NCBI GenBank assembly: GCA_944390195.1
Contig: CALXOZ010000017.1
Coordinates: 1-47,869, forward strand
DNA: 47,869 nucleotides
From: an uncultured Alphaproteobacteria bacterium
GTDB lineage: Bacteria > Pseudomonadota > Alphaproteobacteria > CAAGCB01 > CAG-977
Direction of reading: 5' to 3'
Below, one piece after another: positions 46,872-47,869 of the stretch. Within the stretch, counting starts at the first letter, position 1. The number at the start of each line of letters is the position of its first letter. The notes under the pieces are model-generated. The model was not told the DNA's origin. It ran no database searches and saw only the letters and a list, made by a program, of their open reading frames with translations. The translations under genes and the position numbers were made by a program.

Positions 46872-47093
46872 TTAATCAACAACGCGTACATGAAAATGTT
46901 CCTGTTCTTCATTATTAAGCATAGAAACAGCAGAACAATAATCAGTCCAAGCTTCAATAGAATCGCGTAATCTGTTTGTAATAAAATTTTCTAATGTTTC
47001 ACCGGCAAGTTGAGCCTGTGTTTCAATAAGATGGTAAAGAGATTCGTCTAGCACAAGAGGGATCACTTTATTATTTGCAGGAGATGTTCCCAT
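46872..47093 (-). CDS. Small ribbon-helix-helix (CopG/Arc-like) protein, orphan
   Basis: 73 residues. The strand KVIPLVLDESL followed by helix YHLIETQAQLAG and helix TLENFITNRLRDSIEAW follows the ribbon-helix-helix pattern of CopG/Arc/MetJ-like DNA-binding proteins and many antitoxins. AAAGGA lies upstream of the ATG at a suitable distance, and a terminator follows, so it is a complete single-gene unit. I see no toxin gene on either side. It may be a stand-alone regulator or the survivor of a toxin-antitoxin pair. Confidence 0.68.
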   Translation of the reverse strand: MGTSPANNKVIPLVLDESLYHLIETQAQLAGETLENFITNRLRDSIEAWTDYCSAVSMLNNEEQEHFHVRVVD

Positions 47094-47389
47094 GGCAGCG
47101 TCCTTTAGATATAAAATGTAACTTCTGTCACTATATATAGATGGGAATCCCTAAATCCAGAAAAAAATGAAAAAAAGTTAAAAAAAAGTTATCAAGTTTG
47201 TTTTTGTTGTGTGGATGATTGCTTTAAACATATTGAATAATAATGCTTTTTTTAAGAAAATAATATTTAATGGAAGAAAAAAGAGATTTTTATAAAAAGA
47301 AAACAAAAAGGGAACGTTTTGTTAAAAATAACTTTTAGTTTTTAAAATAAAAACGAAACATTTAAAAGTTGTTTTTCTGTGTAAAAAGA
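47094..47389. other. Gene-free A+T-rich stretch upstream of the ribbon-helix-helix gene
   Basis: About 300 bases, very A+T-rich, with long A and T tracts. It must hold the promoter of the minus-strand gene at 47093 (TATATA-type sequence near 47135-47143), but I cannot fix a -35 box. Confidence 0.4.
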
Positions 47390-47453
47390 AGACATACCTT
47401 CTTAAAACGGTTAAAAAGTAGAGGAGGAAAAGTGTTTTAAGAAAGGTATGTCT
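47390..47453. repeat. Long near-perfect inverted repeat (hairpin)
   Basis: Left arm 47390-47408 (begins AGACATACC) and right arm 47434-47453 (ends GGTATGTCT) are reverse complements over 19 positions with a single one-base insertion, separated by 25 bases. There is no T-run after either arm, so it is not a standard terminator. It lies 22 bases beyond the stop codon of the tandem-repeat gene on the minus strand. Confidence 0.75.
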
Positions 47454-47475: not shown

Positions 47476-47869
47476 TTAAGGATGCGGCTTTTTATCCGGA
47501 GAAGAAACGTCGATTTCATTTAAAGTTGGAGACATCCGCTTTACTGTGTGGGTTTTTTTTATGACAGCAATAATTTTTTTATCCGGATTGGGTGGAACCA
47601 TTGCTTTATTTTTCGCTTCGTCCGGTATGGGAGTCGGCTTTTTGGGATCTGTTTTTTCTTCTTTCAGATCTTTTTTCGGAGCAACAGAAGGATCCATACG
47701 CCGTCTTTCTCTTTCTTCTTTAATTGCTTCCGGATCCAATGGCGCGCCTTTGAAAAAATCACGTCTATGATGTTTCGGGAACGGCCTTGCCGCTTCTTTC
47801 AGATCTTTTTTCGGAGCAACAGAAGGATCCATACGCCGTCTTTCTCTTTCTTCTTTAATTGCTTCCGGA
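47476..47869 (-). CDS. Partial gene for a charged tandem-repeat protein, 5' end outside window
   Basis: The reading frame is open from the window edge to the stop at 47476, giving about 131 residues of C-terminal sequence. It contains a 45-residue unit (a charged helix-like part I-K-E-E-R-E-R-R-R, then MDPSVAPKKDLKE, then a basic HHRRDFFKGAP part); the end of one copy and a following partial copy are seen, identical where they overlap. After the repeats comes a Pro- and Lys-rich C terminus (DPKKPTPIPDEAKNK, VPPNPDKK). No known domain is visible. Such basic low-complexity repeat proteins can be surface, nucleic-acid-binding or secreted factors; no function is claimed. An ATG at 47832 is internal to the repeat and not the true start. 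Confidence 0.75.
   Translation of the reverse strand, partial: PEAIKEERERRRMDPSVAPKKDLKEAARPFPKHHRRDFFKGAPLDPEAIKEERERRRMDPSVAPKKDLKEEKTDPKKPTPIPDEAKNKAMVPPNPDKKIIAVIKKTHTVKRMSPTLNEIDVSSPDKKPHP
47658..47869 (-). repeat. In-frame 135-bp tandem repeat within the edge gene
   Basis: The sequence from 47658 to 47734 is identical to 47793-47869, an offset of exactly 135 bases (45 codons), and the window ends inside the second copy. Zero differences over 77 bases point to recent duplication or ongoing homogenisation. Confidence 0.9.

Follow-up and report, generated by a model that had tools for sequence, protein, structure and literature searches.

A one-species expansion of a 135-bp repeat in the tail of an ECF-linked Metal_resist protein

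To which gene does the tandem repeat at the edge of this contig belong, and what could the repeats do in its product? The window, i.e. the whole stretch of 47,869 nucleotides analysed here, ends with two segments (47658-47734 and 47793-47869) that are identical at 77 of 77 bases, with a spacing of 135 bases. A chance origin of a 77-base repeat was rejected, as Markov-1 simulated windows (n = 40) gave exact repeats of at most 20 bases. On the minus strand a frame remains open from the window edge to a stop codon at 47476-47478; it encodes 130 aa and its 5' end lies beyond the window. The original prediction spoke of perfect 135-bp repeats. The arrangement in in-frame units of 45 codons is borne out by this open frame. 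The word perfect holds for the 77 shared bases but not for whole units, since the edge truncates the first unit and the last one diverges after codon 35. Elsewhere in the window an Rfam scan returned two tRNAs only, and the segment 39540-43917 encodes, in the usual order, what we take from the translations, named by eye, to be an Lpt protein, LptB, RpoN, a ribosome-hibernation factor and PtsN.

The window is the entire contig C17, one of 38 in a genome of 2.12 Mb, and it stops within the array because that is where the assembly broke. Contig C19 of this genome carries the repeat too, in its first 360 bases. The ends of C17 and C19 share 54 bases exactly, and 17 residues are common to both parts of the protein. 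An upstream reading frame and a start codon, looked for beyond the window, are both present on C19: the gene starts at C19:1064, minus strand, and runs for 354 residues to the contig end (L004:3-1064, minus), which gives an N-terminal part of at least 354 codons. The shortest possible C19-C17 join is a protein of 467 residues with the units U1, U2, U3/W1 and W2. The array therefore counts at least four copies of the 45-residue unit, and further units may be hidden.

This join is supported by the gene order in relatives. In all seven near relatives considered (six of the same genus and one of a sister genus), a homologue of the 73-aa gene of the window follows the gene homologous to the C19 part, named here Metal_resist after the domain described below. 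In a third genus the 73-aa homologue follows the Metal_resist gene at none of four loci, two of which have short flanks. Between the Metal_resist gene and the 73-aa gene of the window lies a hairpin (Table 1) that is a probable terminator, with a minimum free energy of -21.6 kcal/mol, a z-score of -5.31 and no shuffled sequence as good (0 of 200). The 90 or so bases upstream of the TraY-like gene (47101-47190) are 73-84% identical over the matched stretch in the seven near relatives, an identity that exceeds that of the remaining intergenic region.

Table 1. Position of the features discussed in the text (window coordinates unless a locus is named).
Feature	Position	Strand	Remark
Downstream neighbour, 73-aa protein, weakly TraY-like (below cut-off)	46872..47093	-	
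Hairpin, stem of about 19 bp, 3' U-rich run	47390..47453	-	22 bases after the stop codon
C-terminal 130 codons and stop of the Metal_resist/CnrX-like gene	47476..47868	-	N-terminal part on contig C19
Unique Lys/Pro-rich C-terminal 60 residues beyond the array	47479..47658	-	
Last repeat unit W2, first 35 codons of the 45-codon unit	47659..47763	-	then departs from the unit
Repeat unit W1, partial, 35 of 45 codons, PKKD type	47764..47868	-	cut by the contig end
TolC-MacA-ABC ATPase-MacB-type permease operon	L066:1841-6308 (G000:C1)	-	same promoter-like element as the ECF/Metal_resist operon

The 135-bp unit has recently been amplified or homogenised, and on this point the original prediction stands. 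On C19 the full-length adjacent units U1 and U2 differ at 3 of 45 codons, and U2 and U3 at none of the 27 codons compared. At the same position of the unit, those of C19 read PEDD and those of the window PKKD. Tandem units of this kind occur in one of the 19 Metal_resist genes compared, that of the present genome. The remaining 18 show no exact residue repeat longer than 6, and their only DNA arrays have units of 9 and 12 bases in about two copies. Within its own genome no repeat DNA was found elsewhere, and in relatives the only matches to it, of 31 and 35 bases, lie in a different gene of two of them. No relative of the encoded repeat was detected among 35 candidate stretches of viral_contigs, and a full-text literature search found no paper combining Metal_resist with a tandem repeat. 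As judged from sequence comparison, the repeats are a recent addition, made in one species, to an otherwise conserved gene.

The C19 part of the protein matches PF13801 (Metal_resist) at residues 66-135, with 32.3 bits for a cut-off of 29.2. Ten homologues were scanned with the same profile: eight are above the cut-off, one is below (26.4) and one gives no match. All 12 homologues, the present protein included, have an N-terminal hydrophobic segment. The predicted model of one of them (G002), built from a nine-row alignment, comprises a TM helix (3-28) and a helical core modelled with confidence (56-140), besides a disordered tail. With this model, rows 1-16 of Foldseek are all Spy, CnrX, CpxP or ZraP with a probability of 0.93-1.00, the best E value being only 0.077, i.e. 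short of the usual significance. The best VIA-align match is ZraP, with a Z of 8.6 and an rmsd of 3.9 over 75 residues, a range that helical proteins can reach by chance. Sequence searches for solved structures returned none for the window protein and only E values of 0.41 and 0.64 for the homologue profile, and neither the sensor nor the small protein nor the tail had an NCBIfam match above cut-off. The core contains one His in the present protein and 0-5 per homologue, and no His is common to all 12. An HxxxM motif is found at an equivalent core position in the seven genus members. A second Metal_resist-like match of the same genome, L054 (G000:C2:108309-108638), has 22 bits, below the cut-off, in an open frame of 173 residues.

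Upstream of the Metal_resist gene on C19 lie the genes of an ECF sigma factor, which matches PF04542 and PF08281, and of a 126-aa protein for which one span is weakly predicted. The ECF gene adjoins the Metal_resist gene in 11 of the 12 family genomes; in the twelfth (G004) only 98 bases of contig precede the Metal_resist gene. The region had been called accessory-like, and this does not hold, as the operon is present in all 11 family genomes that have contigs long enough to show it. For other alphaproteobacteria the two genes are adjacent at six of seven loci, the seventh contig being cut just before the gene. All 12 genomes of the family have a relative of the C19 protein, as do 2 of 29 others in the class, and the relatives that are named include metagenome-assembled genomes from rumen and horse faeces. 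In G009 and G010 (L034, L035) the order is Metal_resist, ECF, small protein, and the promoter-like element described below stands in front of the Metal_resist gene instead. The small one-span protein is probably the anti-sigma factor, judged by its position and size. Pfam has no family above cut-off for it; mean hydropathy passes 1.6 in 9 of the 13 small proteins beside an ECF gene, with predicted span scores about the cut-off.

Taken as a whole, the gene product is rather likely to be an inner-membrane-anchored periplasmic Metal_resist protein of CnrX/Spy type, with an ECF sigma factor and a probable anti-sigma factor as partners. An edge repeat left unassigned is thereby placed in a signalling operon of uncultured gut and rumen alphaproteobacteria.

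Which genes could this sigma factor control? In the regions before nine ECF genes a GYAWG(N)TTT-like element is separated from CGTTTA by a constant distance, and from these regions the motif GYAWGNTTT-N12/13-CGTTWA was read by eye. An ECF promoter of the GAAC/AAAC-N-CGT type was dropped, having 1 match in these 9 regions. The exact motif has 21 matches in 12 genomes versus 10 for a reversed control: 10 places with the 16-base spacing (control 4) and 11 with the 17-base spacing (control 6). Eight of the 21 precede the ECF/Metal_resist operon, eight precede TolC or MacA genes (one of them, in G001, a MacA-like gene on another contig than the TolC orthologue) and five fall inside long ORFs. Six of the eight operon matches are obtained by construction, G009 and G010 being outside the motif derivation, and the eight TolC/MacA matches are not independent, the upstream regions being mostly homologous. 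In these TolC/MacA regions the spacers vary between species while both boxes are kept. The present genome has only two exact matches, a number not far above chance, one before the ECF/Metal_resist operon and one before an efflux operon. The latter has genes for an outer-membrane efflux protein and a membrane-fusion protein, together with those for an ABC ATPase and a MacB-type permease; the MacB-like ATPase and permease are separate genes. Upstream of TolC orthologues the motif is full in 7 of 11 cases, at 13 of 14 positions in one and at 9-12 in three; upstream of TolC paralogues it is full in 0 of 4, the best having 10-12 of 14. The orthologue regions of G001, G009 and G011 are without the full motif, and G010 has no orthologue at the threshold. 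The shared element suggests that the TolC-MacA-MacB-type efflux operon belongs to the regulon, and the ECF operon gains a testable target. Among the literature matches listed for ECF sigma factors and MacAB efflux, none is titled on such a link.

The metal site of CnrX consists of three His, a Glu and a Met. This three-His site is absent here, and as a single core His does not fit it, an envelope signal other than metal is at least as probable. At rest, the anti-sigma factor would retain the ECF factor on the membrane. The core of the Metal_resist protein would sense or modulate an envelope signal, be it metal, misfolding or a toxic compound, and trigger the release: by analogy with CnrYXH, the Metal_resist protein would act on the small membrane protein and the ECF factor would be freed. 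It could then transcribe its own operon and the TolC-MacA-MacB-type efflux operon, so that efflux would rise. For the CnrX/CnrY/CnrH mechanism of Cupriavidus metallidurans we refer to an extract of PMC4598750.

The repeats themselves are located in the tail that follows the core. This tail measures 29 to 167 residues in 11 relatives and more than 214 in the present protein, where it is Pro/His-rich. It exceeds 100 residues in 5 of the 12 proteins, and these five share Pro/Cys/His-rich stretches, with 2-6 Cys versus 0-1 in the seven short tails. Modelled alone, the 130 residues of the window give a model of low confidence, with a mean pLDDT of 65.7 and one helix of 11-12 residues per 45-residue unit; by prediction the tail is disordered, and it differs between sister species. 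The array is Lys/Arg- and Pro-rich, and a unit contains 2 His, no Cys and 1 Met, with a net charge of 0 or +4. The array is preceded by a 93-residue linker with 10 His, 3 Cys and 5 Met. The repeats had been described as basic and helix-rich. Both terms are weak: the first for units that may carry no net charge, the second for a single short helix per unit at a mean pLDDT of 66.

The tail has probably grown in this species by unequal recombination or slippage of the 135-bp unit, to at least four copies. Most likely it is a length-tolerant periplasmic linker, possibly metal-binding via its His/Cys/Met-rich part, or close to neutral, and to us the simplest reading is a tolerant linker whose unit number is under little selection. 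Neutral drift, which concerns the tail only and would make the repeat an accidental duplication of recent date that serves no function by itself, is compatible with the main reading of the gene and we give it somewhat less than an even chance. It accounts for the spread of tail lengths over the 12 homologues, for repeats in only one gene of 19 and for the predicted disorder, but less well for a frame still open across at least four units and for the common stretches of the five long tails. Alternatively the tail could buffer or sense metal, the segment before the array binding it and the repeats spacing this segment from the membrane. The residues of the 93-residue linker, the Cys content of the other four long tails and the HxxxM motif agree with such a role, which we nevertheless judge unlikely: the unit itself is poor in these residues, no His is conserved across the family, and a MacAB-type pump rather than a metal exporter is predicted as target. 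The tail might even be a length-tunable tether, the unit number setting the reach of the sensor towards peptidoglycan, the outer membrane or the MacA-TolC pump, hence the threshold of sigma release; we regard this as quite improbable. If true, slippage in one sensor gene would tune efflux from strain to strain. More generally, if repeat number affects signalling, an ECF pathway would be tuned through the length of its periplasmic sensor.

The original prediction favoured a variable surface or host-interaction protein, in which changes of copy number vary an exposed protein. Near-identical in-frame units restricted to one species and their Lys/Arg- and Pro-rich character are what such a protein would have. 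The gene encodes instead an N-terminal membrane anchor and a Metal_resist core within an ECF operon conserved in the family, and profile searches matched no anchor or domain typical of surface proteins, so that this reading is very improbable. Could the copies result from misassembly or strain mixing in this metagenome-assembled genome? Both contigs do end within the array, with their 54 bases in common. But on C19 alone there are two complete units and a portion of a third, which differ in their substitutions and in unit type from N- to C-terminus, and the window holds another unit pair; we give an artefact hardly any credit.

The feature is thus a one-species repeat expansion in the tail of an ECF-linked envelope protein of a known kind. 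With CnrYXH (ECF sigma factor CnrH, anti-sigma factor CnrY and anchored periplasmic sensor CnrX) the operon has in common an ECF gene, a gene for a small protein with one predicted span and one for an anchored periplasmic protein of Metal_resist type; further points of likeness are the Foldseek match to CnrX, at the weak E values given above, and an efflux operon as predicted target. CnrYXH controls an RND pump, whereas the predicted target here is a MacAB-TolC-type ABC pump. The protein also differs from CnrX by its single core His and its long disordered tail with tandem repeats, and the small protein is likened to CnrY by position and size. Spy, CpxP and ZraP have a helical core fold that the present protein probably shares (Foldseek rows 1, 4 and 5, and the VIA-align match to ZraP). 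They are partners of two-component systems, in contrast to the present protein, which is partnered with an ECF factor, is anchored and carries a long tail. Within the same class, Azospirillum brasilense Sp7 has an operon composed of RpoE8, a hypothetical protein and a "periplasmic heavy metal sensor", which is upregulated on RpoE6 overexpression, according to an extract of PMC12826043. As described there, and by description rather than by sequence, it has the same three-gene layout as the operon reported here.
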